A DNA stretch of 64,000 bases. Source: Coriaria nepalensis. Lineage: Eukaryota > Streptophyta > Magnoliopsida > Cucurbitales > Coriariaceae. Every line of letters begins with the position of its first letter. The first letter of the stretch is position 1. The stretch is from the NCBI GenBank assembly GCA_027186245.1, contig CP114498.1, positions 5,029,501 through 5,093,500 of the forward strand. Reading direction: 5' to 3'. Below are positions 20,201 to 64,000 of this stretch, one piece after another. The notes beneath the pieces were generated by a model, which was given only the letters and a program-made list of their open reading frames with translations, searched no databases and was not told the DNA's origin. A program made the translations under genes and the position numbers.

Positions 20201-20331
20201 TTATATTTATATTTATATTTATATTTATATTTATATTTATATTTATATTTATATTTATATTTATATTTATATTTATATTTATATTTATATTTATATTTAT
20301 ATTTATATTTATATTTATATTTATATTTATT
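20201..20331. repeat. (TTTATA)n microsatellite
   Basis: About 21 uninterrupted copies of the hexamer ATATTT, roughly 130 bp. Copy number is likely polymorphic. Confidence 0.95.
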
Positions 20332-20339
20332 ATTTTTAA

Positions 20340-20529: not shown

Positions 20530-20537
20530 TAGTCTTG

Positions 20538-23452: not shown

Positions 23453-23456
23453 TCCC

Positions 23457-37655: not shown

Positions 37656-38210
37656 TTTTTTTTTGAAAGGTAAGCGTATATTTCCAAAAAAAATCAATTA
37701 CAAGCACACAGTGAGCAAGCTCACAGTGGAAAAAATAAAAAAGAATACAACAGCCTAAAAAGGCAACCAATACCTAGAACAAACCAACCTAAAACAAAAG
37801 CGGCAAAAGACCCAAAACAATCTACACTTGGGTAACCCAATGGAGGTCACAAGAGAAACCTCTCCCCTAACAAGAGAAAGGGAAAATAACCATAAGAGTA
37901 AGAAGACCGGGGACAACCCTATTACAAAAACAACCAAGGGGCATAACCCAAGGTGGTCACTAGGAGGACCACCAGCCAACCTAACCTGGGGTGAAAAAAC
38001 CCCCTTTGGGTGAAAAACCCAAGGTGGCCACTAGAGGGACCGCTACCCATCATCAAAAGATGTACACATCACAATGCAAAGGGGCATACCCCAGTGTGCC
38101 CTCTCAACCAGGGCCACTATCCACATATAAAACATATAAGCAACGAAACTTAGAGTGATCGTCCAGGGGGTCATAACCCACCATCACACAAAATAATCAA
38201 GAAAAAAATA
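37656..38210 (-). mobile_element. LINE tail copy 1 (long form)
   Basis: Minus-strand LINE 3' UTR and tail, flanked by cccatcaatagat (37643-37655) and cccatcaatagaa (38211-38223), i.e. its target duplication with one later change. More diverged than the other copies (acacagtgagc, catcacaatgc), so it probably marks the edge of the amplified region. Confidence 0.9.
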
Positions 38211-39334
38211 CCCATCAATAGAACATTTCCAAGTTATGCACAAAAGTCGTATTTCAAGTGAGAAAATATAATTCCCTCGAATTATTTTCAAATGGTTTAG
38301 TGATTTGAAAGACCCGTTGACATGATTTTGAGGTGAATCAAATACATATTTCCCTTCAATAGATAATTTCCAAGTTACGCATGAAAGTCATGTCTGAAGT
38401 ACGTAAATAGAATTCGTTCCAATTATTTTCAAATGGTTTATTGGATCGAATGGACCAATTGACACGATTTTGAGGTTCAACAAATGCATACTTCCTTTCA
38501 ATAGATCATTTGCAAGTTATGCACGAAAGTTGTGTTTGAAGTGCGAAAATAGAATTCACTCGAATTGCTTTCAAATGGTTTAGCGACTTGAAGGGAATCC
38601 TTGACATGATTTTGAGGTAAAACATATGCACAATTCCCTTTAATAGATCATTTCCAAGTTATGTATGAAAGTTGTGTTTGAAGTGCGAAAATAGAACTCA
38701 TTCGAATTGCTTTCAAATGGTTTAGCGACTTGAAGCGACGCGTTGACATGATTTTGAGGTAACACATATGCACAATTCCCTTTAATAGTCTTCCATTTCG
38801 AAGTTATGTATGAAAGTCGTGTTTAAATTGCGAAAATGAGGTTCGTCCGAATTGCTTCCAAATGGGTTATTGACTTGAAGTGACTCATTGAAATGTCTTT
38901 AAGGTTAAGCAAATGCACACTTCCCTTCAATAGATCATTTCAATTTATGCACGAAAGTCATGTTTGAAGTGCGAAAATAGAATTCGGTCAAAAGTGACTC
39001 ATTGACTGGAAGTGACTCATTTACATGATCTTGAGGTAAAACAAATCCACACTTCCCTTCAATAGATTAATTCCTTGTTATGCGTGAAAGTCGTGTTTTG
39101 AGTCGAAAAATAAAATTCGCTCGAATTGCTTCCAAATAGTTTATGGATTAGAAGTTAGTCATTGATATAATTTTGAGGTTAAACAAATTCACACTTCCCT
39201 TCAATAGATCATTCCCAAGTCATGCACGAAGTTCATGTTTGTAGTGCGAATTGCTTTCGAATAGTCTGGTGACTTGAAGAGACTCATTGACATGATGTTG
39301 AGGTAAAACAAATGCACACTTCCCATCAATAGAT

Positions 39335-39905
39335 TTTGTTTTTTTTTTTTTGAAAGGTAAGCGTATATTTCTGAAAAACCAATTACAGGCACACGGTGAG
39401 CAAGCTCACAGTAGAAAAAAATAAAAATAAATAAAAGAATACAACAGCCTAAAAAGGCAACCCATACCTAGAACAAACCAACCTCAAACAAAAGCGGCAA
39501 AAGAAGCCAAAACAATCTACACTGGGGTAACCCAATGGAGGTCACAAGAGAAACCTCTCCCCTAACAAGAGAAAAGGAAAAGAACCATAAGAGTAAGAAG
39601 ACCGGGGACAACCCTATTACAAAAACAACCAAGGGGCATAACCCAAGGTGGTCACTAGGAGGACCACCAGCCAACCTAACCTGGGGTGAAAAAACCCCCT
39701 TTGGGTGAAAAACCCAAGGTGGCCACTAGAGGGACCGCTACCCATCATCAAAAGATGTACACATCACAAAGCAAAGGGGCATACCCCAGTGTGCCCTCTC
39801 AACCAGGGCCACTATCCACATATAAAACATATAAGCAACGAAACTTAGAGTGATCGTCCAGGGGGTCATAACCCACCATCACACAAAATAATCAAGAAAA
39901 AAATA
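39335..39905 (-). mobile_element. LINE tail copy 2 (long form, gaaagg type)
   Basis: Both 13-bp flanks are intact. Shares the tttgaaagg start and the cccatacct and cctcaaac variants with copies 3, 6 and 8. Confidence 0.9.
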
Positions 39906-41029
39906 CCCATCAATAGATCATTTCCAAGTTATGCACAAAAGTCGTATTTGAAGTGAGAAAATATAATTCCCTCGAATTATTTTCAAATGGTTTAGTGATT
40001 TGAAAGACCCGTTGACATGATTTTGAGGTGAATCAAATACATATTTCCCTTCAATAGATAATTTCCAAGTTACGCATGAAAGTCATGTCTGAAGTACGTA
40101 AATAGAATTCGTTCCAATTATTTTCAAATGGTTTATTGGCTCGAATGGACCAATTGACACGATTTTGAGGTTCAACAAATGCATACTTCCTTTCAATAGA
40201 TCATTTGCAAGTTATGCACGAAAGTTGTGTTTGAAGTGCGAAAATAGAATTCACTCGAATTGCTTTCAAATGGTTTAGCGACTTGAAGGGACTCGTTGAC
40301 ATGATTTTGAGGTAAAACATATGCACAATTCCCTTTAATAGATCATTTCCAAGTTATGTATGAAAGTTGTGTTTGAAGTGCGAAAATAGAACTCATTCGA
40401 ATTGCTTTCAAATGGTTTAGCGACTTGAAGCGACGCGTTGACATGATTTTGAGGTAACACATATGCACAATTCCCTTTAATAGAAGACCATTTCGAAGTT
40501 ATGTATGAAAGTCGTGTTTAAATTGCGAAAATGAGGTTCGTCCGAATTGCTTCCAAATGGGTTATTGACTTGAAGTGACTCATTGAAATGTCTTTAAGGT
40601 TAAGCAAATGCACACTTCCCTTCAATAGATCATTTCAATTTATGCACGAAAGTCATGTTTGAAGTGCGAAAATAGAATTCGGTCAAAAGTGACTCATTGA
40701 CTGGAAGTGACTCATTTACATGATCTTGAGGTAAAACAAATCCACACTTCCCTTCAATAGATTAATTCCTTGTTATGCGTGAAAGTCGTGTTTTGAGTCG
40801 AAAAATAAAATTCGCTCGAATTGCTTCCAAATAGTTTATGGATTAGAAGTTAGTCATTGATATAATTTTGAGGTTAAACAAATTCACACTTCCCTTCAAT
40901 AGATCATTCCCAAGTCATGCACGAAGTTCATGTTTGTAGTGCGAATTGCTTTCGAATAGTCTGGTGACTTGAAGAGACTCATTGACATGATGTTGAGGTA
41001 AAACAAATGCACACTTCCCATCAATAGAT

Positions 41030-41600
41030 TTTGTTTTTTTTTTTTTGAAAGGTAAGCGTATATTTCTGAAAAACCAATTACAGGCACACGGTGAGCAAGC
41101 TCACAGTAGAAAAAAATAAAAATAAATAAAAGAATACAACAGCCTAAAAAGGCAACCCATACCTAGAACAAACCAACCTCAAACAAAAGCGGCAAAAGAA
41201 GCCAAAACAATCTACACTGGGGTAACCCAATGGAGGTCACAAGAGAAACCTCTCCCCTAACAAGAGAAAAGGAAAAGAACCATAAGAGTAAGAAGACCGG
41301 GGACAACCCTATTACAAAAACAACCAAGGGGCATAACCCAAGGTGGTCACTAGGAGGACCACCAGCCAACCTAACCTGGGGTGAAAAAACCCCCTTTGGG
41401 TGAAAAACCCAAGGTGGCCACTAGAGGGACCGCTACCCATCATCAAAAGATGTACACATCACAAAGCAAAGGGGCATACCCCAGTGTGCCCTCTCAACCA
41501 GGGCCACTATCCACATATAAAACATATAAGCAACGAAACTTAGAGTGATCGTCCAGGGGGTCATAACCCACCATCACACAAAATAATCAAGAAAAAAATA
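41030..41600 (-). mobile_element. LINE tail copy 3 (long form, gaaagg type)
   Basis: Exactly 1,695 bp after copy 2 and virtually identical with it, including the flanking monomers: a recent tandem duplication. Confidence 0.9.
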
Positions 41601-43144
41601 CCCATCAATAGATCATTTCCAAGTTATGCACAAAAGTCGTATTTGAAGTGAGAAAATATAATTCCCTCGAATTATTTTCAAATGGTTTAGTGATTTGAAA
41701 GACCCGTTGACATGATTTTGAGGTGAATCAAATACATATTTCCCTTCAATAGATAATTTCCAAGTTACGCATGAAAGTCATGTCTGAAGTACGTAAATAG
41801 AATTCGTTCCAATTATTTTCAAATGGTTTATTGGCTCGAATGGACCAATTGACACGATTTTGAGGTTCAACAAATGCATACTTCCTTTCAATAGATCATT
41901 TGCAAGTTATGCACGAAAGTTGTGTTTGAAGTGCGAAAATAGAATTCACTCGAATTGCTTTCAAATGGTTTAGCGACTTGAAGGGACTCGTTGACATGAT
42001 TTTGAGGTAAAACATATGCACAATTCCCTTTAATAGATCATTTCCAAGTTATGTATGAAAGTTGTGTTTGAAGTGCGAAAATAGAACTCATTCGAATTGC
42101 TTTCAAATGGTTTAGCGACTTGAAGCGACGCGTTGACATGATTTTGAGGTAAAACATATGCACAATTCCCTTTAATAGAAGATCATTTCGAAGTTATGTA
42201 TGAAAGTCGTGTTTAAATTGCGAACATGGAATTCGTCCGAATTGCTTCCGAATGGGTTATTGACTTGAAGTGACTCATTGCAATGTCTTTAAGGTTAAGC
42301 AAATGCACACTTCCCTTCAATAGATCATTTCAAGTTATGCACGAAAGTCATGTTTGAAGTGCGAAAATAGAATTCGGTCAAAAGTGACTCATTGAATGGA
42401 AGTGACTCATTTACATGATCTTGAGGTAAAACAAATCCACACTTCCCTTCAATAGATTAATTCCTTGTTATGCATGAAAGTCGTGTTTTGAGTCGAAAAA
42501 TAAAATTCGCTCGAATTGCTTCGAAATAGTTTATGGATTTGAAGTTAGTCATTGATATAATTTTGAGGTTAAACAAATTCACACTTCCCTTCAATAGATC
42601 ATTCCCAAGTTATGTACGAAAGTTGTGTTTGAAGTGCGAAAATAGAACTCATTCGAATTGCTTTCAAATGGTTTAGCGACTTGAAGCGACGCGTTGACAT
42701 GATTTTGAGGTAAAACATATGCAAAATTCCCTTTAATAGAAGATCATTTCCAAGTTATGTATGAAAGTCGTGTTTAAATTGCAAAAATAGAATTCGGTCA
42801 AAAGTGACTCATTGACTGGAAGTGACTCATTTACATGATCTTGAGGTAAAACAAATCCACACTTCCCTTCAATAGGTTAATTCCTTGTTATGCGTGAAAG
42901 TCGTGTTTTGAGTCAAAAAATAAAATTCGCTCGAATTGCTTCCAAGTAGTTTATGGATTTGAAGTTAGTCATTGATATAATTTTGAGGTTAAACTAATTC
43001 ACACTTCCCTTCAATAGATCATTTCCAAGTCATGCACGAAGTTCATGTTTGAAGTGCGAATTGCTTTCGAATAGTCTGGTGACTTGAAGGGACTCATTGA
43101 CACGATGTTGAGGTAAAACAAATGCACACTTCCCATCAATAGAT

Positions 43145-43715
43145 TTTGTTTTTTTTTTTAAAGGTAAGCGTATATTTCTGAAAAACCAATTACAGGCACA
43201 CGGTGAGCAAGCTCACAGTAGAAAAAAAATAAAAATAAATAAAAGAATACAACAGCCTAAAAAGGCAACCAATACCTAGAACAAACCAACCTAAAACAAA
43301 AGCGGCAAAAGAAGCCAAAACAATCTACACTGCGGTAACCCAATGGAGGTCACAAGAGAAACTTCTCCCCTAACAAGAGAAAAGGAAAAGAACCATAAGA
43401 GTAAGAAGACCGGGGACAACCCTATTACAAAAACAACCAAGGGGCATAACCCAAGGTGGTCACTAGGAGGACCACCAGCCAACCTAACCTGAGGTGAAAA
43501 AACCCCCTTTGGGTGAAAAACCCAAGGTGGCCACTAGAGGGACCGCTACCCATCATCAAAAGATGTACACATCACAAAGCAAAGGGGCATACCCCAGTGT
43601 GCCCTCTCAACCAGGGCCACTATCCACATATAAAACATATAAGCAACGAAACTTAGAGTGATCGTGCAGGGGGTCATAACCCACCATAACACAAAATAAT
43701 CAAGAAAAAAAAATA
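43145..43715 (-). mobile_element. LINE tail copy 4 (long form, taaagg type)
   Basis: Starts tttaaagg and carries the private variants cctgaggtg (near 43487) and cactgcgg, shared with copy 9 at +9,485. Confidence 0.9.
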
Positions 43716-44834
43716 CCCATCAATAGATCATTTCTTATGCACAAAAGTCGTATTTGAAGTGAGAAAATATAATTCCCTCGAATTATTTTCAAATGGTTTA
43801 GTGACTTGAAAGACCCGTTGACATGATTTTGAGGTGAATCAAATACATATTTCCCTTCAATAGATAATTTCCAAGTTACGCATGAAAGTCATGTCTGAAG
43901 TACGTAAATAGAATTCGTTCCAATTATTTTCAAATGTTTATTGGCTCGAATGGACCAATTGACGTGATTTTGAGGTTCAACAAATGCATACTTCCTTTCA
44001 ATAGATCATTTGCAACTTATGCACGAAAGTTGTGTTTGAAGTGCGAAAATAGAATTCACTCGAATTGCTTTCAAATGGTTTAGCGACTTGAAGGGACTCG
44101 TTGACATGATTTTGAGGTAAAACATATGCACAATTCCCTTTAATAGATCATTTCCAAGTTATGTATGAAAGTTGTGTTTGAAGTGCGAAAATAGAACTCA
44201 TTCGAATTGCTTTCAAATGGTTTAGCGACTTGAAGCGACGCGTTGACATGATTTTGAGGTAAAACATATGCAAAATTCCCTTTAATAGAAGATCATTTCC
44301 AAGTTATGTATGAAAGTCGTGTTTAAATTGCGAAAATGGAATTCGTCCGAATTGCTTCTAAATGGGTTATTGACTTGAAGTGACTCATTGAAATGTCTTT
44401 AAGGTTAAGCAAATGCACACTTCCCTTCAATAGATCATTTCAAGTTATGCACGAAAGTCATGTTTGAAGTGCGAAAATAGAATTCGGTCAAAAGTGACTC
44501 ATTGACTGGAACTGACTCATTTACATGATCTTGAGGTAAAACAAATCCACACTTCCCTTCAATAGATTAATTCCTTGTTATGCATGAAAGTCGTGTTTTG
44601 AGTCAAAAAATAAAATTCGCTCGAATTGCTTCCAAATAGTTTATGGATTTGAAGTTAGTCATTGATATAATTTTGAGGTTAAACAAATTCACACTTCCCT
44701 TCAATAGATCATTTCCAAGTCATGCACGAAGTTCATGTTTGAAGTGCGAATTGCTTTCGAATAGTCTGGTGACTTGAAGGGACTCATTGACACGATGTTG
44801 AGGTAAAACAAATGCACACTTCCCATCAATAGAT

Positions 44835-45272
44835 TTTGTTTTTTTTTTTAAAGGTAAGCGTATATTTCTGAAAAACCAATTACAGGCACACGGTGAGCAA
44901 GCTCACAGTAGAAAAAAATAAAAATAAATAAAAGAATACAACAGCCTAAAAAGGCAACCAATACCTAGAACAAACCAACCTAAAACAAAAGCGGCTAAAG
45001 AAGCCAAAACAATCTACACTGCGGTAACCCAATGGAGGTCACAAGAGAAACTTCTCCCCTAACAAGAGAAAAGGAAAAGAACCATAAGAGTAAGAAGACC
45101 GGGGACAACCCTATTACAAAAACAACCAAGGGGCATAACCCAAGGTGGTCACTAGGAGGACCACCAGCCAACCTAACCTGGGGTGAAAAAACCCCCTTTG
45201 GGTGAAAAACCCAAGGTGGCCACTAGAGGGACCGCTACCCATCATCAAAAGATGTACACATCACAAAGCAAA
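44835..45272 (-). mobile_element. LINE tail copy 5 (short form)
   Basis: Stops at aaagcaaa and joins satellite tagaactc directly, losing about 130 bp of LINE and the right target repeat. Has gcggctaaag, shared only with copy 10. Confidence 0.9.
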
Positions 45273-46335
45273 TAGAACTCATTCGAATTGCTTTCAAATG
45301 GTTTAGCAACTTGAAGCGACGCGTTGACATGATTTTGAGGTAAAACATATGCAAAATTCCCTTTAATAGAAGATCATTTCCAAGTTATGTATGAAAGTCG
45401 TGTTTAAATTGCGAAAATGGAATTCGTCCGAATTGCTTCCGAATGGGTTATTGACTTGAAGTGACTCATTGAAATGTCTTTAAGGTTAAGCAAATGCACA
45501 CTTCCCTTCAATAGATCATTTCAAGTTATGCACGAAAGTCATGTTTGATTTGCGAAAATAGAATTCGGTCAAAAGTGACTCATTGACTGGAAGTGACTCA
45601 TTTACATGATCTTGAGGTAAAACATATCCACACTTCCCTTCAATAGATTAATTCCTTGTTATGCATGAAAGTCGTGTTTTGAGTCAAAAAATAAAATTCG
45701 CTCGAATTGCTTCGAAATAGTTTATGGATTTGAAGTTAGTCATTGATATAATTTTGAGGTTAAACAAATTCACACTTCCCTTCAATAGATCATTCCCAAG
45801 TTATGTATGAAAGTTGTGTTTGAAGTGCGAAAATAGAACTCATTCGAATTGCTTTCAAATGGTTTAGCGACTTGAAGCGACGCGTTCACATGATTTTGAG
45901 GTAAAACATATGCAAAATTCCCTTTAATAGAAGATCATTTCCAAGTTATGTATGAAAGTCGTGTTTAAATTGCAAAAATAGAATTCGGTCAAAAGTGACT
46001 CATTGACTGGAAGTGACTCATTTACATGATCTTGAGGTAAAACAAATCCACACTTCCCTTCAATAGATTAATTCCTTGTTATGCGTGAAAGTCGTGTTTT
46101 GAGTCAAAAAATAAAATTCGCTCGAATTGCTTCCAAGTAGTTTATGGATTTGAAGTTAGTCATTGATATAATTTTGAGGTTAAACTAATTCACACTTCCC
46201 TTCAATAGATCATTTCCAAGTCATGCACGAAGTTCATGTTTGAAGTGCGAATTGCTTTCGAATAGTCTGGTGACTTGAAGGGACTCATTGACATGATGTT
46301 GAGGTAAAACAAATGCACACTTCCCATCAATAGAT

Positions 46336-46906
46336 TTTGTTTTTTTTTTTTTGAAAGGTAAGCGTATATTTCTGAAAAACCAATTACAGGCACACGGTGA
46401 GCAAGCTCACAGTAGAAAAAAATAAAAATAAATAAAAGAATACAACAGCCTTAAAAGGCAACCCATACCTAGAACAAACCAACCTCAAACAAAAGCGGCA
46501 AAAGAAGCCAAAACAATCTACACTGGGGTAACCCAATGGAGGTCACAAGAGAAACCTCTCCCCTAACAAGAGAAAAGGAAAAGAACCATAAGAGTAAGAA
46601 GACCGGGGACAACCCTATTACAAAAACAACCAAGGGGCATAACCCAAGGTGGTCACTAGGAGGACCACCAGCCAACCTAACCTGGGGTGAAAAAACCCCC
46701 TTTGGGTGAAAAACCCAAGGTGGCCACTAGAGGGACCGCTACCCATCATCAAAAGATGTACACATCACAAAGCAAAGGGGCATACCCCAGTGTGCCCTCT
46801 CAACCAGGGCCACTATCCACATATAAAACATATAAGCAACGAAACTTAGAGTGATCGTCCAGGGGGTCATAACCCACCATCACACAAAATAATCAAGAAA
46901 AAAATA
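46336..46906 (-). mobile_element. LINE tail copy 6 (long form, gaaagg type)
   Basis: Carries a private change cagccttaaaagg near 46447, and its right flank reads cctatcaat. Confidence 0.9.
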
Positions 46907-49011
46907 CCTATCAATAGATCATTTCCAAGTTATGCACAAAAGTCGTATTTGAAGTGAGAAAATATAATTCCCTCGAATTATTTTCAAATGGTTTAGTGAT
47001 TTGAAAGACCCGTTGACATGATTTTGAGGTGAATCAAATACATATTTCCCTTCAATAGATAATTTCCAAGTTACGCATGAAAGTCATGTCTGAAGTACGT
47101 AAATAGAATTCGTTCCAATTATTTTCAAATGGTTTATTGGCTCGAATGGACCAATTGACACGATTTTGAGGTTCAACAAATGCATACTTCCTTTCAATAG
47201 ATCATTTGCAAGTTATGCACGAAAGTTGTGTTTGAAGTGCGAAAATAGAATTCACTCGAATTGCTTTCAAATGGTTTAGCGACTTGAAGGGACTCGTTGA
47301 CATGATTTTGAGGTAAAACATATGCACAATTCCCTTTAATAGATCATTTCCAAGTTATGTATGAAAGTTGTGTTTGAAGTGCGAAAATAGAACTCATTCG
47401 AATTGCTTTCAAATGGTTTAGCGACTTGAAGCGACGCGTTGACATGATTTTGAGGTAAAACATATGCACAATTCCCTTTAATAGAAGATCATTTCGAAGT
47501 TATGTATGAAAGTCGTGTTTAAATTGCGAACATGGAATTCGTCCGAATTGCTTCCGAATGGGTTATTGACTTGAAGTGACTCATTGCAATGTCTTTAAGG
47601 TTAAGCAAATGCACACTTCCCTTCAATAGATCATTTCAAGTTATGCACGAAAGTCATGTTTGAAGTGCGAAAATAGAATTCGGTCAAAAGTGACTCATTG
47701 AATGGAAGTAACTCATTTACATGATCTTGAGGTAAAACAAATCCACACTTCCCTTCAATAGATTAATTCCTTGTTATGCATGAAAGTCGTGTTTTGAGTC
47801 GAAAAATAAAATTCGCTCGAATTGCTTCGAAATAGTTTATGGATTTGAAGTTAGTCATTGATATAATTTTGAGGTTAAACAAATTCACACTTCCCTTCAA
47901 TAGATCATTCCCAAGTTATGTATGAAAGTTGTGTTTGAAGTGCGAAAATAGAACTCATTCGAATTGCTTTCAAATGGTTTAGCGACTTGAAGCGACGCGT
48001 TGACATGATTTTGAGGTAAAACATATGCAAAATTCCCTTTAATAGAAGATCATTTCCAAGTTATGTATGAAAGTCGTGTTTAAATTGCGAAAATGGAATT
48101 CGTCCGAATTGCTTCCGAATGGGTTATTGACTTGAAGTGACTCATTGAAATGTCTTTAAGGTTAAGCAAATGCACACTTCCCTTCAATAGATCATTTCAA
48201 GTTATGCACGAAAGTCATGTTTGATTTGCGAAAATAGAATTCGGTCAAAAGTGTCTCATTGACTGGAAGTGACTCATTTACATGATCTTGAGGTAAAACA
48301 TATCCACACTTCCCTTCAATAGATTAATTCCTTGTTATGCATGAAAGTCGTGTTTTGAGTCAAAAAATAAAATTCGCTCGAATTGCTTCGAAATAGTTTA
48401 TGGATTTGAAGTTAGTCATTGATATAATTTTGAGGTTAAACAAATTCACACTTCCCTTCAATAGATCATTCCCAAGTTATGTATGAAAGTTGTGTTTGAA
48501 GTGCGAAAATAGAACTCATTCGAATTGCTTTCAAATGGTTTAGCGACTTGAAGCGACACGTTCACATGATTTTGAGGTAAAACATATGCAAAATTCCCTT
48601 TAATAGAAGATCATTTCCAAGTTATGTATGAAAGTCGTGTTTAAATTGCAAAAATAGAATTCGGTCAAAAGTGACTCATTGACTGGAAGTGACTCATTTA
48701 CATGATCTTGAGGTAAAACAAATCCACACTTCCCTTCAATAGATTAATTCCTTGTTATGCGTGAAAGTCGTGTTTTGAGTCAAAAAATAAAATTCGCTCG
48801 AATTGCTTCCAAGTAGTTTATGGATTTGAAGTTAGTCATTGATATAATTTTGAGGTTAAACTAATTCACACTTCCCTTCAATAGATCATTTCCAAGTCAT
48901 GCACGAAGTTCATGTTTGAAGTGCGAATTGCTTTCGAATAGTCTGGTGACTTGAAGGGACTCATTGACATGATGTTGAGGTAAAACAAATGCACACTTCC
49001 CATCAATAGAT

Positions 49012-49451
49012 TTTGTTTTTTTTTTTTTAAAGGTAAGCGTATATTTCTGAAAAACCAATTACAGGCACACGGTGAGCAAGCTCACAGTAGAAAAAAATAA
49101 AAATAAATAAAAGAATACAACAGCCTAAAAAGGCAACCAATACCTAGAACAAACCAACCTAAAACAAAAGCGGCAAAAGAAGCCAAAACAATCTACACTG
49201 GGGTAACCCAATGGAGGTCACAAGAGAAACTTCTCCCTTAACAAGAGAAAAGGGAAAGAACCATAAGAGTAAGAAGACCGGGGACAACCCTATTACAAAA
49301 ACAACCAAGGGGCATAACCCAAGGTGGTCACTAGGAGGACCACCAGCCAACCTAACCTGGGGTGAAAAAACCCCCTTTGGGTGAAAAACCCAAGGTGGCC
49401 ACTAGAGGGACCGCTACCCATCATCAAAAGATGTACACATCACAAAGCAAA
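49012..49451 (-). mobile_element. LINE tail copy 7 (short form)
   Basis: Has ctcccttaac and agggaaag, shared with copies 11 and 16. Satellite upstream has the rare gtgtctcatt and gcgacacg variants also found 6,809 bp later. Confidence 0.9.
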
Positions 49452-50514: not shown

Positions 50515-51085
50515 TTTGTTTTTTTTTTTTTGAAAGGTAAGCGTATATTTCTGAAAAACCAATTACAGGCACACGGTGAGCAAGCTCACAGTAGAAAAAA
50601 ATAAAAATAAATAAAAGAATACAACAGCCTAAAAAGGCAACCCATACCTAGAACAAACCAACCTCAAACAAAAGCGGCAAAAGAAGCCAAAACAATCTAC
50701 ACTGGGGTAACCCAATGGAGGTCACAAGAGAAACCTCTCCCCTAACAAGAGAAAAGGAAAAGAACCATAAGAGTAAGAAGACCGGGGACAACCCTATTAC
50801 AAAAACAACCAAGGGGCATAACCCAAGGTGGTCACTAGGAGGACCACCAGCCAACCTAACCTGGGGTGAAAAAACCCCCTTTGGGTGAAAAACCCAAGGT
50901 GGCCACTAGAGGGACCGCTACCCATCATTAAAAGATGTACACATCACAAAGCAAAGGGGCATACCCCAGTGTGCCCTCTCAACCAGGGCCACTATCCACA
51001 TATAAAACATATAAGCAACGAAACTTAGAGTGATCGTCCAGGGGGTCATAACCCACCATCACACAAAATAATCAAGAAAAAAATA
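50515..51085 (-). mobile_element. LINE tail copy 8 (long form, gaaagg type)
   Basis: Positioned 9,485 bp after copy 3 and 4,179 bp after copy 6. Private change catcattaaaag near 50929. Confidence 0.9.
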
Positions 51086-52629
51086 CCCATCAATAGATCA
51101 TTTCCAAGTTATGCACAAAAGTCGTATTTGAAGTGAGAAAATATAATTCCCTCGAATTATTTTCAAATGGTTTAGTGATTTGAAAGACCCGTTGACATGA
51201 TTTTGAGGTGAATCAAATACATATTTCCCTTCAATAGATAATTTCCAAGTTACGCATGAAAGTCATGTCTGAAGTACGTAAATAGAATTCGTTCCAATTA
51301 TTTTCAAATGGTTTATTGGCTCGAATGGACCAATTGACACGATTTTGAGGTTCAACAAATGCATACTTCCTTTCAATAGATCATTTGCAAGTTATGCACG
51401 AAAGTTGTGTTTGAAGTGCGAAAATAGAATTCACTCGAATTGCTTTCAAATGGTTTAGCGACTTGAAGGGACTCGTTGACATGATTTTGAGGTAAAACAT
51501 ATGCACAATTCCCTTTAATAGATCATTTCCAAGTTATGTATGAAAGTTGTGTTTGAAGTGCGAAAATAGAACTCATTCGAATTGCTTTCAAATGGTTTAG
51601 CGACTTGAAGCGACGCGTTGACATGATTTTGAGGTAAAACATATGCACAATTCCCTTTAATAGAAGATCATTTCGAAGTTATGTATGAAAGTCGTGTTTA
51701 AATTGCGAACATGGAATTCGTCCGAATTGCTTCCGAATGGGTTATTGACTTGAAGTGACTCATTGCAATGTCTTTAAGGTTAAGCAAATGCACACTTCCC
51801 TTCAATAGATCATTTCAAGTTATGCACGAAAGTCATGTTTGAAGTGCGAAAATAGAATTCGGTCAAAAGTGACTCATTGAATGGAAGTGACTCATTTACA
51901 TGATCTTGAGGTAAAACAAATCCACACTTCCCTTCAATAGATTAATTCCTTGTTATGCATGAAAGTCGTGTTTTGAGTCGAAAAATAAAATTCGCTCGAA
52001 TTGCTTCGAAATAGTTTATGGATTTGAAGTTAGTCATTGATATAATTTTGAGGTTAAACAAATTCACACTTCCCTTCAATAGATCATTCCCAAGTTATGT
52101 ACGAAAGTTGTGTTTGAAGTGCGAAAATAGAACTCATTCGAATTGCTTTCAAATGGTTTAGCGACTTGAAGCGACGCGTTGACATGATTTTGAGGTAAAA
52201 CATATGCAAAATTCCCTTTAATAGAAGATCATTTCCAAGTTATGTATGAAAGTCGTGTTTAAATTGCAAAAATAGAATTCGGTCAAAAGTGACTCATTGA
52301 CTGGAAGTGACTCATTTACATGATCTTGAGGTAAAACAAATCCACACTTCCCTTCAATAGGTTAATTCCTTGTTATGCATGAAAGTCGTGTTTTGAGTCA
52401 AAAAATAAAATTCGCTCGAATTGCTTCCAAGTAGTTTATGGATTTGAAGTTAGTCATTGATATAATTTTGAGGTTAAACTAATTCACACTTCCCTTCAAT
52501 AGATCATTTCCAAGTCATGCACGAAGTTCATGTTTGAAGTGCGAATTGCTTTCGAATAGTCTGGTGACTTGAAGGGACTCATTGACACGATGTTGAGGTA
52601 AAACAAATGCACACTTCCCATCAATAGAT

Positions 52630-53200
52630 TTTGTTTTTTTTTTTAAAGGTAAGCGTATATTTCTGAAAAACCAATTACAGGCACACGGTGAGCAAGCTCA
52701 CAGTAGAAAAAAAATAAAAATAAATAAAAGAATACAACAGCCTAAAAAGGCAACCAATACCTAGAACAAACCAACCTAAAACAAAAGCGGCAAAAGAAGC
52801 CAAAACAATCTACACTGCGGTAACCCAATGGAGGTCACAAGAGAAACTTCTCCCCTAACAAGAGAAAAGGAAAAGAACCATAAGAGTAAGAAGACCGGGG
52901 ACAACCCTATTACAAAAACAACCAAGGGGCATAACCCAAGGTGGTCACTAGGAGGACCACCAGCCAACCTAACCTGAGGTGAAAAAACCCCCTTTGGGTG
53001 AAAAACCCAAGGTGGCCACTAGAGGGACCGCTACCCATCATCAAAAGATGTACACATCACAAAGCAAAGGGGCATACCCCAGTGTGCCCTCTCAACCAGG
53101 GCCACTATCCACATATAAAACATATAAGCAACGAAACTTAGAGTGATCGTCCAGGGGGTCATAACCCACCATAACACAAAATAATCAAGAAAAAAAAATA
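52630..53200 (-). mobile_element. LINE tail copy 9 (long form)
   Basis: Repeats copy 4 at +9,485 with the shared cctgaggtg variant near 52972. Confidence 0.9.
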
Positions 53201-54319
53201 CCCATCAATAGATCATTTCTTATGCACAAAAGTCGTATTTGAAGTGAGAAAATATAATTCCCTCGAATTATTTTCAAATGGTTTAGTGACTTGAAAGACC
53301 CGTTGACATGATTTTGAGGTGAATCAAATACATATTTCCCTTCAATAGATAATTTCCAAGTTACGCATGAAAGTCATGTCTGAAGTACGTAAATAGAATT
53401 CGTTCCAATTATTTTCAAATGTTTATTGGCTCGAATGGACCAATTGACGTGATTTTGAGGTTCAACAAATGCATACTTCCTTTCAATAGATCATTTGCAA
53501 CTTATGCACGAAAGTTGTGTTTGAAGTGCGAAAATAGAATTCACTCGAATTGCTTTCAAATGGTTTAGCGACTTGAAGGGACTCGTTGACATGATTTTGA
53601 GGTAAAACATATGCACAATTCCCTTTAATAGATCATTTCCAAGTTATGTATGAAAGTTGTGTTTGAAGTGCGAAAATAGAACTCATTCGAATTGCTTTCA
53701 AATGGTTTAGCGACTTGAAGCGACGCGTTGACATGATTTTGAGGTAAAACATATGCAAAATTCCCTTTAATAGAAGATCATTTCCAAGTTATGTATGAAA
53801 GTCGTGTTTAAATTGCGAAAATGGAATTCGTCCGAATTGCTTCTAAATGGGTTATTGACTTGAAGTGACTCATTGAAATGTCTTTAAGGTTAAGCAAATG
53901 CACACTTCCCTTCAATAGATCATTTCAAGTTATGCACGAAAGTCATGTTTGAAGTGCGAAAATAGAATTCGGTCAAAAGTGACTCATTGACTGGAACTGA
54001 CTCATTTACATGATCTTGAGGTAAAACAAATCCACACTTCCCTTCAATAGATTAATTCCTTGTTATGCATGAAAGTCGTGTTTTGAGTCAAAAAATAAAA
54101 TTCGCTCGAATTGCTTCCAAATAGTTTATGGATTTGAAGTTAGTCATTGATATAATTTTGAGGTTAAACAAATTCACACTTCCCTTCAATAGATCATTTC
54201 CAAGTCATGCACGAAGTTCATGTTTGAAGTGCGAATTGCTTTCGAATAGTCTGGTGACTTGAAGGGACTCATTGACACGATGTTGAGGTAAAACAAATGC
54301 ACACTTCCCATCAATAGAT

Positions 54320-54757
54320 TTTGTTTTTTTTTTTAAAGGTAAGCGTATATTTCTGAAAAACCAATTACAGGCACACGGTGAGCAAGCTCACAGTAGAAAA
54401 AAATAAAAATAAATAAAAGAATACAACAGCCTAAAAAGGCAACCAATACCTAGAACAAACCAACCTAAAACAAAAGCGGCTAAAGAAGCCAAAACAATCT
54501 ACACTGCGGTAACCCAATGGAGGTCACAAGAGAAACTTCTCCCCTAACAAGAGAAAAGGAAAAGAACCATAAGAGTAAGAAGACCGGGGACAACCCTATT
54601 ACAAAAACAACCAAGGGGCATAACCCAAGGTGGTCACTAGGAGGACCACCAGCCAACCTAACCTGGGGTGAAAAAACCCCCTTTGGGTGAAAAACCCAAG
54701 GTGGCCACTAGAGGGACCGCTACCCATCATCAAAAGATGTACACATCACAAAGCAAA
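54320..54757 (-). mobile_element. LINE tail copy 10 (short form)
   Basis: Repeats copy 5 at +9,485, including gcggctaaag. Confidence 0.9.
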
Positions 54758-55820
54758 TAGAACTCATTCGAATTGCTTTCAAATGGTTTAGCAACTTGAA
54801 GCGACGCGTTGACATGATTTTGAGGTAAAACATATGCAAAATTCCCTTTAATAGAAGATCATTTCCAAGTTATGTATGAAAGTCGTGTTTAAATTGCGAA
54901 AATGGAATTCGTCCGAATTGCTTCCGAATGGGTTATTGACTTGAAGTGACTCATTGAAATGTCTTTAAGGTTAAGCAAATGCACACTTCCCTTCAATAGA
55001 TCATTTCAAGTTATGCACGAAAGTCATGTTTGATTTGCGAAAATAGAATTCGGTCAAAAGTGTCTCATTGACTGGAAGTGACTCATTTACATGATCTTGA
55101 GGTAAAACATATCCACACTTCCCTTCAATAGATTAATTCCTTGTTATGCATGAAAGTCGTGTTTTGAGTCAAAAAATAAAATTCGCTCGAATTGCTTCGA
55201 AATAGTTTATGGATTTGAAGTTAGTCATTGATATAATTTTGAGGTTAAACAAATTCACACTTCCCTTCAATAGATCATTCCCAAGTTATGTATGAAAGTT
55301 GTGTTTGAAGTGCGAAAATAGAACTCATTCGAATTGCTTTCAAATGGTTTAGCGACTTGAAGCGACACGTTCACATGATTTTGAGGTAAAACATATGCAA
55401 AATTCCCTTTAATAGAAGATCATTTCCAAGTTATGTATGAAAGTCGTGTTTAAATTGCAAAAATAGAATTCGGTCAAAAGTGACTCATTGACTGGAAGTG
55501 ACTCATTTACATGATCTTGAGGTAAAACAAATCCACACTTCCCTTCAATAGATTAATTCCTTGTTATGCGTGAAAGTCGTGTTTTGAGTCAAAAAATAAA
55601 ATTCGCTCGAATTGCTTCCAAGTAGTTTATGGATTTGAAGTTAGTCATTGATATAATTTTGAGGTTAAACTAATTCACACTTCCCTTCAATAGATCATTT
55701 CCAAGTCATGCACGAAGTTCATGTTTGAAGTGCGAATTGCTTTCGAATAGTCTGGTGACTTGAAGGGACTCATTGACATGATGTTGAGGTAAAACAAATG
55801 CACACTTCCCATCAATAGAT

Positions 55821-56391
55821 TTTGTTTTTTTTTTTTTAAAGGTAAGCGTATATTTCTGAAAAACCAATTACAGGCACACGGTGAGCAAGCTCACAGTAGA
55901 AAAAAATAAAAATAAATAAAAGAATACAACAGCCTAAAAAGGCAACCAATACCTAGAACAAACCAACCTAAAACAAAAGCGGCAAAAGAAGCCAAAACAA
56001 TCTACACTGGGGTAACCCAATGGAGGTCACAAGAGAAACTTCTCCCTTAACAAGAGAAAAGGGAAAGAACCATAAGAGTAAGAAGACCGGGGACAACCCT
56101 ATTACAAAAACAACCAAGGGGCATAACCCAAGGTGGTCACTAGGAGGACCACCAGCCAACCTAACCTGGGGTGAAAAAACCCCCTTTGGGTGAAAAACCC
56201 AAGGTGGCCACTAGAGGGACCGCTACCCATCATCAAAAGATGTACACATCACAAAGCAAAGGGGCATACCCCAGTGTGCCCTCTCAACCAGGGCCACTAT
56301 CCACATATAAAACATATAAGCAACGAAACTTAGAGTGATCGTCCAGGGGGTCATAACCCACCATAACACAAAATAATCAAGAAAAAAAATA
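55821..56391 (-). mobile_element. LINE tail copy 11 (long form)
   Basis: Left part matches copy 7 (agggaaag), but the right part is long form: a recombinant of the two types, or the parent of the short one. Confidence 0.9.
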
Positions 56392-57514
56392 CCCATCAAT
56401 AGATCATTTCCAAGTTATGCACAAAAGTCGTATTTGAAGTGAGAAAATATAATTCCCTCGAATTATTTTCAAATGGTTTAGTGACTTGAAAGACCCGTTG
56501 ACATGATTTTGAGGTGAATCAAATACATATTTCCCTTCAATAGATAATTTCCAAGTTACGCATGAAAGTCATGTCTGAAGTACGTAAATAGAATTCGTTC
56601 CAATTATTTTCAAATGTTTATTGGCTCGAATGGACCAATTGACGTGATTTTGAGGTTCAACAAATGCATACTTCCTTTCAATAGATCATTTGCAAGTTAT
56701 GCACGAAAGTTGTGTTTAAAGTGTGAAAATAGAATTCACTCGAATTGCTTTCAAATGGTTTAGCGACTTGAAGGGACTCGTTGACATGATTTTGAGGTAA
56801 AACATATGCACAATTCCCTTTAATAGATCATTTCCAAGTTATGTATGAAAGTTGTGTTTGAAGTGCGAAAATAGAACTCATTCGAATTGCTTTCAAATGG
56901 TTTAGCGACTTGAAGCGACGCGTTGACATGATTTTGAGGTAAAACATATGCAAAATTCCCTTTAATAGAAGATCATTTCCAAGTTATGTATGAAAGTCGT
57001 GTTTAAATTGCGAAAATGGAATTCGTCCGAATTGCTTCCAAATGGGTTATTGACTTGAAGTGACTCATTGAAATGTCTTTAAGGTTAAGCAAATGCACAC
57101 TTCCCTTCAATAGATCATTTCAAGTTATGCACGAAAGTCATGTTTGAAGTGCGAAAATAGAATTCGGTCAAAAGTGACTCATTGACTGGAAGTGACTCAT
57201 TTACATGATCTTGAGGTAAAACAAATCCACACTTCCCTTCAATAGATTAATTCCTTGTTATGCATGAAAGTCGTGTTTTGAGTCAAAAAATAAAATTCGC
57301 TCGAATTCCTTCCAAATAGTTTATGGATTTGAAGTTAGTCATTGATATAATTTTGAGGTTAAACAAATTCACACTTCCCTTCAATAGATCATTTCCAAGT
57401 CATGCACGAAGTTCATGTTTGAAGTGCGAATTGCTTTCGAATAGTCTGGTGACTTGAAGGGACTCATTGACACGATGTTGAGGTAAAACAAATGCACACT
57501 TCCCATCAATAGAT

Positions 57515-57952
57515 TTTGTTTTTTTTTTTAAAGGTAAGCGTATATTTCTGAAAAACCAATTACAGGCACACGGTGAGCAAGCTCACAGTAGAAAAAAATA
57601 AAAATAAATAAAAGAATACAACAGCCTAAAAAGGCAACCAATACCTAGAACAAACCAACCTAAAACAAAAGCGGCAAAAGAAGCCAAAACAATCTACACT
57701 GCGGTAACCCAATGGAGGTCACAAGAGAAACTTCTCCCCTAACAAGAGAAAAGGAAAAGAACCATAAGAGTAAGAAGACCGGGGACAACCCTATTACAAA
57801 AACAACCAAGGGGCATAACCCAAGGTGGTCACTAGGAGGACCACCAGCCAACCTAACCTGGGGTGAAAAAACCCCCTTTGGGTGAAAAACCCAAGGTGGC
57901 CACTAGAGGGACCGCTACCCATCATCAAAAGATGTACACATCACAAAGCAAA
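57515..57952 (-). mobile_element. LINE tail copy 12 (short form)
   Basis: First of four consecutive short-form units of about 1,502 bp. Keeps accgctaccc and cactgcgg. Confidence 0.9.
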
Positions 57953-59015
57953 TAGAACTCATTCGAATTGCTTTCAAATGGTTTAGCAACTTGAAGCAAC
58001 GCGTTGACATGATTTTGAGGTAAAACATATGCAAAATTCCCTTTAATAGAAGATCATTTCCAAGTTATGTATGAAAGTCGTGTTTAAATTGCGAAAATGG
58101 AATTCGTCCGAATTGCTTCCGAATGGGTTATTGACTTGAAGTGACTCATTGAAATGTCTTTAAGGTTAAGCAAATGCACACTTCCCTTCAATAGATCATT
58201 TCAAGTTATGCACGAAAGTCATGTTTGATTTGCGAAAATAGAATTCGGTCAAAAGTGACTCATTGACTGGAAGTGACTCATTTACATGATCTTGAGGTAA
58301 AACAAATCCACACTTCCCTTCAATAGATTAATTCGTTGTTATGGATGAAAGTCGTGTTTTGAGTCAAAAAATAAAATTCGCTCGAATTGCTTCGAAATAG
58401 TTTATGGATTTGAAGTTAGTCATTGATATAATTTTGAGGTTAAACAAATTCACACTTCCCTTCAATAGATCATTCCCAAGTTATGTATGAAAGTTGTGTT
58501 TGAAATGCGAAAATAGAACTCATTCGAATTGCTTTCAAATGGTTTAGCGACTTGAAGCGACGCGTTGACATGATTTTGAGGTAAAACATATGCAAAATTC
58601 CCTTTAATAGAAGATCATTTCCAAGTTATGTATGAAAGTCGTGTTTAAATTGCAAAAATAGAATTCGGTCAAAAGTGACTCATTGACTGGAAGTGACTCA
58701 TTTACATGATCTTGAGGTAAAACAAATCCACACTTCCCTTCAATAGATTAATTCCTTGTTATGCGTGAAAGTCGTGTTTTGAGTCAAAAAATAAAATTCG
58801 CTCGAATTGCTTCCAAGTAGTTTATGGATTTGAAGTTAGTCATTGATATAATTTTGAGGTTAAACTAATTCACACTTCCCTTCAATAGATCATTTCCAAG
58901 TCATGCACGAAGTTCATGTTTGAAGTGCGAATTGCTTTCGAATAGTCTGGTGACTTGAAGGGACTCATTGACACGATGTTGAGGTAAAACAAATGCACAC
59001 TTCCCATCAATAGAT

Positions 59016-59454
59016 TTTGTTTTTTTTTTTAAAGGTAAGCGTATATTTCTGAAAAACCAATTACAGGCACACGGTGAGCAAGCTCACAGTAGAAAAAAAA
59101 TAAAAATAAATAAAAGAATACAACAGCCTAAAAAGGCAACCAATACCTAGAACAAACCAACCTAAAACAAAAGCGGCAAAAGAAGCCAAAACAATCTACA
59201 GTGGGGTAACCCAATGGAGGTCACAAGAGAAACTTCTCCCCTAACAAGAGAAAAGGAAAAGAACCATAAGAGTAAGAAGACCGGGGACAACCCTATTACA
59301 AAAACAACCAAGGGGCATAACCCAAGGTGGTCACTAGGAGGACCACCAGCCAACCTAACCTGGGGTGAAAAAACCCCCTTTGGGTGAAAAACCCAAGGTG
59401 GCCACTAGAGGGACCGTTACCCATCATCAAAAGATGTACACATCACAAAGCAAA
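59016..59454 (-). mobile_element. LINE tail copy 13 (short form)
   Basis: Shares accgttaccc and acagtgggg only with copies 14 and 15. Confidence 0.9.
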
Positions 59455-60517
59455 TAGAACTCATTCGAATTGCTTTCAAATGGTTTAGCAACTTGAAGCG
59501 ACGCGTTGACATGATTTTGAGGTAAAACATATGCAAAATTCCCTTTAATAGAAGATCATTTCCAAGTTATGTATGAAAGTCGTGTTTAAATTGCGAAAAT
59601 GGAATTCGTCCGAATTGCTTCCGAATGGGTTATTGACTTGAAGTGACTCATTGAAATGTCTTTAAGGTTAAGCAAATGCACACTTCCCTTCAATAGATCA
59701 TTTCAAGTTATGCACGAAAGTCATGTTTGATTTGCGAAAATAGAATTCGGTCAAAAGTGACTCATTGACTGGAAGTGACTCATTTACATGATCTTGAGGT
59801 AAAACATATCCACACTTCCCTTCAATAGATTAATTCCTTGTTATGCATGAAAGTCGTGTTTTGAGTCAAAAAATAAAATTCGCTCGAATTGCTTCGAAAT
59901 AGTTTATGGATTTGAAGTTAGTCATTGATATAATTTTGAGGTTAAACAAATTCACACTTCCCTTCAATAGATCATTCCCAAGTTATGTATGAAAGTTGTG
60001 TTTGAAATGCGAAAATAGAACTCATTCGAATTGCTTTCAAATGGTTTAGCGACTTGAAGCGACGCGTTGACATGATTTTGAGGTAAAACATATGCAAAAT
60101 TCCCTTTAATAGAAGATCATTTCCAAGTTATGTATGAAAGTCGTGTTTAAATTGCAAAAATAGAATTCGGTCAAAAGTGACTCATTGACTGGAAGTGACT
60201 CATTTACATGATCTTGAGGTAAAACAAATCCACACTTCCCTTCAATAGATTAATTCCTTGTTATGCGTGAAAGTCGTGTTTTGAGTCAAAAAATAAAATT
60301 CGCTCGAATTGCTTCCAAGTAGTTTATGGATTTGAAGTTAGTCATTGATATAATTTTGAGGTTAAACTAATTCACACTTCCCTTCAATAGATCATTTCCA
60401 AGTCATGCACGAAGTTCATGTTTGAAGTGCGAATTGCTTTCGAATAGTCTGGTGACTTGAAGGGACTCATTGACACGATGTTGAGGTAAAACAAATGCAC
60501 ACTTCCCATCAATAGAT

Positions 60518-60956
60518 TTTGTTTTTTTTTTTAAAGGTAAGCGTATATTTCTGAAAAACCAATTACAGGCACACGGTGAGCAAGCTCACAGTAGAAAAAA
60601 AATAAAAATAAATAAAAGAATACAACAGCCTAAAAAGGCAACCAATACCTAGAACAAACCAACCTAAAACAAAAGCGGCAAAAGAAGCCAAAACAATCTA
60701 CAGTGGGGTAACCCAATGGAGGTCACAAGAGAAACTTCTCCCCTAACAAGAGAAAAGGAAAAGAACCATAAGAGTAAGAAGACCGGGGACAACCCTATTA
60801 CAAAAACAACCAAGGGGCATAACCCAAGGTGGTCACTAGGAGGACCACCAGCCAACCTAACCTGGGGTGAAAAAACCCCCTTTGGGTGAAAAACCCAAGG
60901 TGGCCACTAGAGGGACCGTTACCCATCATCAAAAGATGTACACATCACAAAGCAAA
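60518..60956 (-). mobile_element. LINE tail copy 14 (short form)
   Basis: Follows copy 13 by 1,502 bp and is nearly identical to it. Confidence 0.9.
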
Positions 60957-62019
60957 TAGAACTCATTCGAATTGTTTTCAAATGGTTTAGCAACTTGAAG
61001 CGACGCGTTGACATGATTTTGAGGTAAAACATATGCAAAATTCCCTTTAATAGAAGATCATTTCCAAGTTATGTATGAAAGTCGTGTTTAAATTGCGAAA
61101 ATGGAATTCGTCCGAATTGCTTCCGAATGGGTTATTGACTTGAAGTGACTCATTGAAATGTCTTTAAGGTTAAGCAAATGCACACTTCCCTTCAATAGAT
61201 CATTTCAAGTTATGCACGAAAGTCATGTTTGATTTGCGAAAATAGAATTCGGTCAAAAGTGACTCATTGACTGGAAGTGACTCATTTACATGATCTTGAG
61301 GTAAAACATATCCACACTTCCCTTCAATAGATTAATTCCTTGTTATGCATGAAAGTCGTGTTTTGAGTCAAAAAATAAAATTCGCTCGAATTGCTTCGAA
61401 ATAGTTTATGGATTTGAAGTTAGTCATTGATATAATTTTGAGGTTAAACAAATTCACACTTCCCTTCAATAGATCATTCCCAAGTTATGTATGAAAGTTG
61501 TGTTTGAAGTGCGAAAATAGAACTCATTCGAATTGCTTTCAAATGGTTTAGCGACTTGAAGCGACGCGTTGACATGATTTTGAGGTAAAACATATGCAAA
61601 ATTCCCTTTAATAGAAGATCATTTCCAAGTTATGTATGAAAGTCGTGTTTAAATTGCAAAAATAGAATTCGGTCAAAAGTGACTCATTGACTGGAAGTGA
61701 CTCATTTACATGATCTTGAGGTAAAACAAATCCACACTTCCCTTCAATAGATTAATTCCTTGTTATGCGTGAAAGTCGTGTTTTGAGTCAAAAAATAAAA
61801 TTCGCTCGAATTGCTTCCAAGTAGTTTATGGATTTGAAGTTAGTCATTGATATAATTTTGAGGTTAAACTAATTCACACTTCCCTTCAATAGATCATTTC
61901 CAAGTCATGCACGAAGTTCATGTTTGAAGTGCGAATTGCTTTCGAATAGTCTGGTGACTTGAAGGGACTCATTGACACGATGTTGAGGTAAAACAAATGC
62001 ACACTTCCCATCAATAGAT

Positions 62020-62459
62020 TTTGTTTTTTTTTTTTAAAGGTAAGCGTATATTTCTGAAAAACCAATTACAGGCACACGGTGAGCAAGCTCACAGTAGAAA
62101 AAAAATAAAAATAAATAAAAGAATACAACAGCCTAAAAAGGCAACCAATACCTAGAACAAACCAACCTAAAACAAAAGCGGCAAAAGAAGCCAAAACAAT
62201 CTACAGTGGGGTAACCCAATGGAGGTCACAAGAGAAACTTCTCCCCTAACAAGAGAAAAGGAAAAGAACCATAAGAGTAAGAAGACCGGGGACAACCCTA
62301 TTACAAAAACAACCAAGGGGCATAACCCAAGGTGGTCACTAGGAGGACCACCAGCCAACCTAACCTGGGGTGAAAAAACCCCCTTTGGGTGAAAAACCCA
62401 AGGTGGCCACTAGAGGGACCGTTACCCATCATCAAAAGATGTACACATCACAAAGCAAA
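62020..62459 (-). mobile_element. LINE tail copy 15 (short form)
   Basis: Follows copy 14 by about 1,502 bp; the next satellite run is shorter by about three monomers (spacing to the next marker 1,081). Confidence 0.9.
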
Positions 62460-63102
62460 TAGAACTCATTCGAATTGCTTTCAAATGGTTTAGCAACTTG
62501 AAGCGACGCGTTGACATGATTTTGAGGTAAAACATATGCAAAATTCCCTTTAATAGAAGATCATTTCCAAGTTATGTATGAAAGTCGTGTTTAAATTGCG
62601 AAAATGGAATTCGTCCGAATTGCTTCCGAATGGGTTATTGACTTGAAGTGACTCATTGAAATGTCTTTAAGGTTAAGCAAATGCACACTTCCCTTCAATA
62701 GATCATTTCAAGTTATGCACGAAAGTCATGTTTGATTTGCGAAAATAGAATTCGGTCAAAAGTGACTCATTGACTGGAAGTGACTCATTTACATGATCTT
62801 GAGGTAAAACAAATCCACACTTCCCTTCAATAGATTAATTCCTTGTTATGCGTGAAAGTCGTGTTTTGAGTCAAAAAATAAAATTCGCTCGAATTGCTTC
62901 GAAATAGTTTATGGATTTGAAGTTAGTCATTGATATAATTTTGAGGTTAAACTAATTCACACTTCCCTTCAATAGATCATTTCCAAGTCATGCACGAAGT
63001 TCATGTTTGAAGTGCGAATTGCTTTCGAATAGTCTGGTGACTTGAAGGGACTCATTGACATGATGTTGAGGTAAAACAAATGCACACTTCCCATCAATAG
63101 AT

Positions 63103-63671
63103 TTTGTTTTTTTTTTTAAAGGTAAGCGTATATTTCTGAAAAACCAATTACAGGCACACGGTGAGCAAGCTCACAGTAGAAAAAAATAAAAATAAATAAA
63201 AGAATACGACAGCCTAAAAAGGCAACCAATACCTAGAACAAACCAACCTAAAACAAAAGCGGCAAAAGAAGCCAAAACAATCTACACTGGGGTAACCCAA
63301 TGGAGGTCACAAGAGAAACTTCTCCCTTAACAAGAGAAAAGGGAAAGAACCATAAGAGTAAGAAGACCGGGGACAACCCTATTACAAAAACAACCAAGGG
63401 GCATAACCCAAGGTGGTCACTAGGAGGACCACCAGCCAACCTAACCTGGGGTGAAAAAACCCCCTTTGGGTGAAAAACCCAAGGTGGCCACTAGAGGGAC
63501 CGCTACCCATCATCAAAAGATGTACACATCACAAAGCAAAGGGGCATACCCCAGTGTGCCCTCTCAACCAGGGCCACTATCCACATATAAAACATATAAG
63601 CAACGAAACTTAGAGTGATCGTCCAGGGGGTCATAACCCACCATAAAACAAAATAATCAAGAAAAAAAATA
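63103..63671 (-). mobile_element. LINE tail copy 16 (long form)
   Basis: Left part of the agggaaag type, as in copies 7 and 11. Private changes aatacgacag (near 63206) and ccataaaac (near 63642). Satellite follows to the window end. Confidence 0.9.
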
Positions 63672-64000
63672 CCCATCAATAGATCATTTCCAAGTTATGC
63701 ACAAAAGTCGTATTTGAAGTGAGAAAATATAATTCCCTCGAATTATTTTCAAATGGTTTAGTGACTTGAAAGACCCGTTGACATGATTTTGAGGTGAATC
63801 AAATACATATTTCCCTTCAATAGATAATTTCCAAGTTACGCATGAAAGTCATGTCTGAAGTACGTAAATAGAATTCGTTCCAATTATTTTCAAATGTTTA
63901 TTGGCTCGAATGGACCAATTGACGTGATTTTGAGGTTCAACAAATGCATACTTCCTTTCAATAGATCATTTGCAAGTTATGCACGAAAGTTGTGTTTGAA

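Follow-up and report, generated by a model that had tools for sequence, protein, structure and literature searches.

Satellite higher-order repeats with embedded transposon pieces are known, as an earlier note on the DNA analyzed here had stated, and cetacean, ape and rye cases bear this out. The subject of this report is a 142-bp satellite of Coriaria nepalensis whose repeating unit includes the 3′ tail of a long interspersed nuclear element (LINE), which is a further instance of a process with precedents in other genomes. All sequence comparisons were made within one assembled window, i.e. the whole stretch of 64,000 nt taken from contig CP114498.1. In the CEN178 arrays of Arabidopsis, ATHILA copies were reportedly duplicated after integration, together with flanking monomers; ATHILA is a long terminal repeat (LTR) retrotransposon, whereas the element in Coriaria is a LINE.

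According to a review, the common cetacean satellite (with an L1 3′ part) and other satellites contain LINE 3′ ends (PMC9659126); for the cetacean L1 3′ end, the original report is Kapitonov, Holmquist and Jurka 1998, as cited in PMC9659126 and PMC8909793. In the available parts of these two sources, the LINE 3′ end belongs to the repeating unit, as it does here. In contrast to the Coriaria array, the cetacean satellite is from an animal and its monomer is itself L1-like, whereas in Coriaria the tail entered a pre-existing 142-bp satellite with its own monomer classes, where an older copy, the target repeats and a probable empty site can still be recognized. The composite repeats of apes likewise form tandem units ("tandem composite repeats") and were found by self-alignment dot plots, but they are from primates, and the available text notes no case with the structure of the Coriaria array (PMC11168930). 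The pSc200 and pSc250 arrays of rye are plant tandem arrays that expanded along with adjacent transposable element pieces, and short fragments of two LINEs lie beside them (PMC4857426). However, the elements at the rye array junctions are mostly LTR elements, sampling was by 454 reads and bacterial artificial chromosomes, and no resolved unit with target repeats is noted in the accessible part of that paper (PMC4857426). Finally, Celine of poplar is another plant LINE that has target duplications and lies in regions rich in repeats, but it colonizes centromeres through insertion, and the excerpt available notes no unit of tail and satellite (PMC11288735).

Within 36 kb, the Coriaria window preserves a whole series well: a probable empty site, the insertion flanked by target repeats, its old duplicate, a deletion that arose secondarily, and amplification at several levels. 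Because the tail marks junctions unambiguously in a satellite that is otherwise self-similar, one can read the order in which exchanges took place and trace the array in relatives or individuals. The case is unusually readable, yet unsurprising to specialists.

Tail copies and their LINE origin

A blastn comparison of the first tail with the window yielded 16 main copies of the LINE tail between 37656 and 63671, all in a single orientation:

37656..38210, minus strand, tail 1, full, right repeat with one mismatch
39335..39905, minus strand, tail 2, full
41030..41600, minus strand, tail 3, full
43145..43715, minus strand, tail 4, full
44835..45272, minus strand, tail 5, cut near base 425 and fused to monomer P2
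46336..46906, minus strand, tail 6, full, right repeat with one mismatch
49012..49451, minus strand, tail 7, cut
50515..51085, minus strand, tail 8, full
52630..53200, minus strand, tail 9, full
54320..54757, minus strand, tail 10, cut
55821..56391, minus strand, tail 11, full
57515..57952, minus strand, tail 12, cut
59016..59454, minus strand, tail 13, cut
60518..60956, minus strand, tail 14, cut
62020..62459, minus strand, tail 15, cut
63103..63671, minus strand, tail 16, full, its unit running past the window end

Nine tails are full length (555-571 bp, matching query bases 1 to 553-555), and in the other seven the blastn match ends at tail base 425. Directly left of all 16 tails, at the end of monomer type M, stands an exact CCCATCAATAGAT, which upholds the claim of the earlier note that the tails sit at the same monomer position with a common left repeat. 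That note also counted nine tails with both 13-bp flanks. This number holds if one mismatch is allowed, but not for exact repeats: the right-hand CCCATCAATAGAT copy is exact in only seven of the nine full tails, and the right repeats of tail 1 (CCCATCAATAGAA) and tail 6 (CCTATCAATAGAT) have one mismatch each. At no more than one mismatch, the 13-mer family had 115 matches, compared with a mean of 0.14 in 100 shuffles. The interval 37656..64000, to which the note had confined the phenomenon, accommodates the 16 tails but is too narrow for the whole, because a 17th copy lies at 29856-30258 and the satellite starts near 20537.

Judging from its sequence, the tail is the 5′-truncated 3′ end of a plant L1-type LINE in minus orientation. 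A T-run adjoins the left target repeat, the opposite end of the tail stops abruptly at the right repeat, and the hallmarks of plant L1-type elements are present, i.e. a 3′ poly(A) end, 5′ truncation, and a target-site duplication in all nine full copies. Insertions of this 5′-truncated L1 type generally arise by target-primed reverse transcription. A related, longer LINE served as reference:

31458..35891, plus strand, related longer LINE with a reverse transcriptase domain at 32944-33900, placed in the monomer that follows an N-like one

With the 3′ end of this LINE, the tail shares 77-80% identity over query bases 2-555 on the opposite strand. Region 32944-33900 matched PF00078 (2.2e-27). 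The reverse transcriptase domain had 755 relatives at E ≤ 0.001; among the 120 listed, the named organisms are flowering plants, and several of these 120 carry the name LINE-1.

Higher-order units and probable exchange between them

Searching with a 142-base consensus (nhmmer), we obtained 186 monomer matches, some of them partial, between 20537 and 63965. The onset of the satellite is therefore placed near 20537. Shortly upstream of it lies a 24-copy TTATAT microsatellite (20190-20335). Literature searches with monomer sequence words (no match) and on "142 bp" (by title, no plant satellite) do not establish the satellite as unpublished; likewise, that nothing in the literature was recognised as the present monomer or unit is weak evidence, coming mostly from title-level listings. 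Monomers were assigned to classes at a 12% (0.12) cut-off, which was chosen first; values from 0.08 to 0.16 were tried afterwards. Monomer identities were computed over aligned bases, gaps excluded. In the unit notation, T is a full tail, t a cut tail, and the other letters are monomer classes.

37656..64000, plus strand, compound higher-order repeat, described by monomer classes, unit lengths and monomer identities
20537..23458, plus strand, old section of the 142-bp satellite in monomeric form, with 21 monomer matches and no tail from this insertion

The array is a satellite higher-order repeat in which ordered, diverged monomers recur with far higher identity than they have among themselves. 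At the 12% cut-off the unit types are (i) T-NOPPQKLM, (ii) T-NOPPQKLPKLM, (iii) T-NOPPQKLPQKLPKLM, (iv) t-PQKLPKLM, and (v) t-PQKLM. The five T-NOPPQKLM units are 97.1-99.9% alike and the six t-PQKLPKLM units 99.3-99.9%. Fifteen units are complete (1082-2675 bp) and a 16th is interrupted by the window end. Measured from start to start, units 1-8 are 1687, 1695, 2112, 1690, 1504, 2675, 1504 and 2112 bp long, and units 9-15 are 1690, 1503, 1692, 1501, 1502, 1503 and 1082 bp long. Since 11 of the 15 fall within 1501-1695 bp, most units are indeed about 1.5-1.7 kb, as had been noted. Monomer homogeneity rises abruptly at the first full tail. The median best-match identity was 0.880 at 20537-23458 (n = 21 monomers, none of which reached 0.97 or more), 0.944 at 28377-37655 (n = 33), and 1.000 from 38224 onward (n = 132, all at least 0.986).

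The seven cut tails all join monomer P2 at one common junction. In the frame of unit 4, this class lacks 608 bp (43584-44191), which take in what is left of the tail and the target repeat on its right, monomers N, O and P1, and 43 bases from the start of P2; the breakpoint is ambiguous by three bases because AAA stands at both ends. The deletion was located by reading the unit-4 and unit-5 sequences at the junction, since a blast of unit 5 against unit 4 at 95% identity gave only the common tail. By this shared junction, the cut class looks like the product of one event. Tail variants are common to full and cut copies: at 3 of the 10 informative tail sites, each variant occurs in both cut and full copies, giving all four combinations, while none of the 45 pairs of tail sites has all four. 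Sequence within the tail has therefore probably been exchanged between cut and full units, through crossing over or conversion. Larger segments were duplicated as well:

41038..46343, plus strand, three-unit block (tails 3-5), recurring at 50523-55827 with 99.6-100% identity per 500-column step

This block of 5.3 kb is about 99.9% identical overall to its second copy, and units 13 and 14 (both t-PQKLPKLM) are 99.87% identical. Taken together, the deletion junction, the exchange in the tail and the block duplication fit recurrent exchange, on several scales, between units out of register.

Two other explanations bear on these units. Spread by extrachromosomal circles and rolling-circle reinsertion, instead of unequal crossing over, would be in keeping with runs of near-identical units of equal size, such as the pair 13 and 14 or units 12-14 with lengths of 1501-1503 bp. 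We regard it as unlikely, though deserving some weight, since the units range in size from 1.08 to 2.68 kb, PKL or PQKL modules being gained or lost, and different types alternate, a pattern expected of exchange between monomers out of register. Circles as the only route were set aside on account of this variable length and alternation. An assembly artefact, with one or few units wrongly repeated, is a very slim prospect: assemblers are prone to err in near-identical blocks like 41038-46343 and 50523-55827, but the units vary in their length, in the modules they contain and at diagnostic sites, and tail 1 and the 17th copy diverge by about 3-9% from the other tails. The exact number of units could nevertheless be wrong in the assembly.

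Older copy, probable empty site and proposed history

Three features left of tail 1 extend the series backwards, together with a candidate for the site before insertion:

29856..30258, minus strand, 17th and oldest tail copy (copy E), which shares the left junction CCCATCAATAGAT and is cut off at tail base ~419, where it joins monomer F
28377..29855, plus strand, older satellite block forming the left flank of the oldest copy, monomer order E F A G H I. J K L M
36344..37655, plus strand, block left of tail 1, monomer order E F A G H. J K L M
31020..31327, plus strand, probable empty site: an M-like monomer, a single CCCATCAATAGAT, then an N-like monomer, tail-free

The oldest copy is 91.1-92.2% identical to the 16 other tails. 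Its deletion and that of the cut class end ~6 tail bases apart (419 and 425; e.g. 30258 and 45272), just before a predicted GGGGCATACCCC hairpin. The two blocks are 96.2% identical over EFAGH and 93.7% over JKLM and, to judge from this alignment, are related by duplication. Between the oldest copy and tail 1, 29 of 401 sites differ, compared with 34 of 538 in the left flank JKLM (Fisher p = 0.60); with tail and JKLM similarly diverged, both fit one common origin. At the probable empty site, the M-like monomer carries a small extra duplication and shares 91.2% identity with the unit-1 M (125 aligned bases), and the N-like monomer at 31186 drops out of the N class at cut-offs of 0.10 and below.

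Tails at differing monomer positions were not found: all 17 follow one monomer cluster. At cut-offs of 0.08, 0.10 and 0.12 this cluster consists of exactly 17 of the 186 monomer matches, and at 0.14 and 0.16 it keeps all 17 tail-preceding monomers and gains two and four tail-free members, respectively. Tails and their neighboring monomers diverged in parallel. Distances among tails were correlated with those among left monomers M (17 copies; Mantel r = 0.82, p = 0.0001), also when the two oldest copies were excluded (r = 0.40, p = 0.0025), and with those among right monomers N (nine full copies; r = 0.90, p = 0.0015). Junctions common to the copies and co-variation with M and N mark the array as a compound satellite with an embedded element. 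That several LINEs inserted independently at the same monomer position through site preference is extremely improbable: other LINE pieces do lie in the satellite (at 31458, as a nested pair at about 23459-28355, and as a 3′ scrap near 23030), but these occupy other monomer positions in both orientations, whereas the nine full tails have a single 5′ truncation point, the seven cut tails a single junction, and all tails follow one monomer class with parallel divergence beside them.

We consider it highly probable that the array goes back to one LINE insertion, an early duplication and one deletion, followed by repeated unequal exchange. In this history, (i) a plant L1-type LINE would have inserted once between an M and an N monomer, in minus-strand orientation, leaving a 5′-truncated copy of about 555-571 bp; (ii) this insertion, by target-primed reverse transcription, would have duplicated the 13 bp CCCATCAATAGAT; (iii) the monomer block with the tail would then have been duplicated, one product being the copy that stands alone at 29856 and has lost its 5′ side; (iv) around the other product, monomers and tails pairing out of register would have undergone homologous exchange, which amplified the tail plus 5 to 15 monomers as a higher-order unit; and (v) one unit would have lost 608 bp through a join at AAA, giving rise to a short class that spread too. 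Of this, the order of events is our inference, as are the role of target-primed reverse transcription and amplification driven by unequal crossing over or gene conversion. The earlier proposal of one retrotransposition into a monomer, followed by amplification as a unit, is supported by the single monomer cluster, the common junctions and the parallel divergence beside the tail. It stands with respect to the single insertion and co-amplification, but was incomplete, and the older 17th copy, the secondary deletion and the block duplication have been added.

Several observations weigh against this history. The far-left flank EFAGH of the oldest copy is closer to its counterpart (25 differences in 653 sites; Fisher p = 0.02 vs the tail), and divergence is thus not uniform, because EFAGH is more alike than the tail. 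The M-like monomer at 31020 has its best match, by a narrow margin, in a monomer other than M (0.894 vs 0.892 for M) and enters the M cluster only at 0.14, alongside the tail-free monomer 36997. Correlation with the tail is weaker further left (L, r = 0.64, p = 0.013; K, r = 0.31, p = 0.004), and for both monomers it vanishes without the older copy and tail 1 (p = 0.21 and 0.50, respectively). For the right flank of the seven cut copies, no correlation with the tail was detected (r = 0.12, p = 0.40). Homogenised monomers would produce such weak or absent correlations for K, L and the right flank, which are not positive support. Moreover, the evidence comes from one assembled window.

Whether the captured tail itself altered recombination in the array is more speculative. 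The 425-bp common core, with a GGGGCATACCCC hairpin predicted just past both breakpoints, may have become a preferred site of misaligned exchange and so started higher-order amplification, which we think doubtful. Homogenisation starts directly after tail 1, tail-free runs in the amplified part comprise at most 15 monomers, and tail variants are reshuffled relative to the cut or full state, all of which speak for such a role. Against it, the older copy stayed single, with no amplification in its place, and one array only is at hand. Folded as single-stranded DNA, one tail was more structured than 100 shuffled sequences (z = -5.1), a result that serves only this speculative role of the tail.

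Other LINE pieces and neighboring sequence

The LINE at 31458-35891 is flanked on both sides by the 14-bp repeat AAATGCACACTTCT (read by eye). It is not called full length, because no endonuclease Pfam match was found in its open reading frame (ORF) 31712-32218. Near its 5′ end, a 38-bp unit occurs in five perfect tandem copies (31562-31753). A sub-threshold match to Exo_endo_phos (19.9 bits, cut-off 24.5) was obtained for ORF 26683-27204 of a minus-strand LINE.

At 27805-28360, a minus-strand LINE tail is fused to a plus-strand reverse transcriptase piece, in the layout of a twin-primed (5′-inverted) insertion; this piece abuts another minus-strand LINE at about 23459-27804. A scrap of LINE 3′ end of ~33 bp with an A-run lies in plus orientation within the satellite (23030-23062).

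In the non-satellite left part of the window, beside pieces of copia-type retrotransposons, ORF 9143-9841 matched the first helical domain of SHPRH (PF21325). This SHPRH-like exon had 71 protein relatives, and those with organism names are from flowering plants. The best-scoring relative was 57% identical over 78% of the query, and the highest identity (76%) was to a Camellia protein covering 32% of the query.

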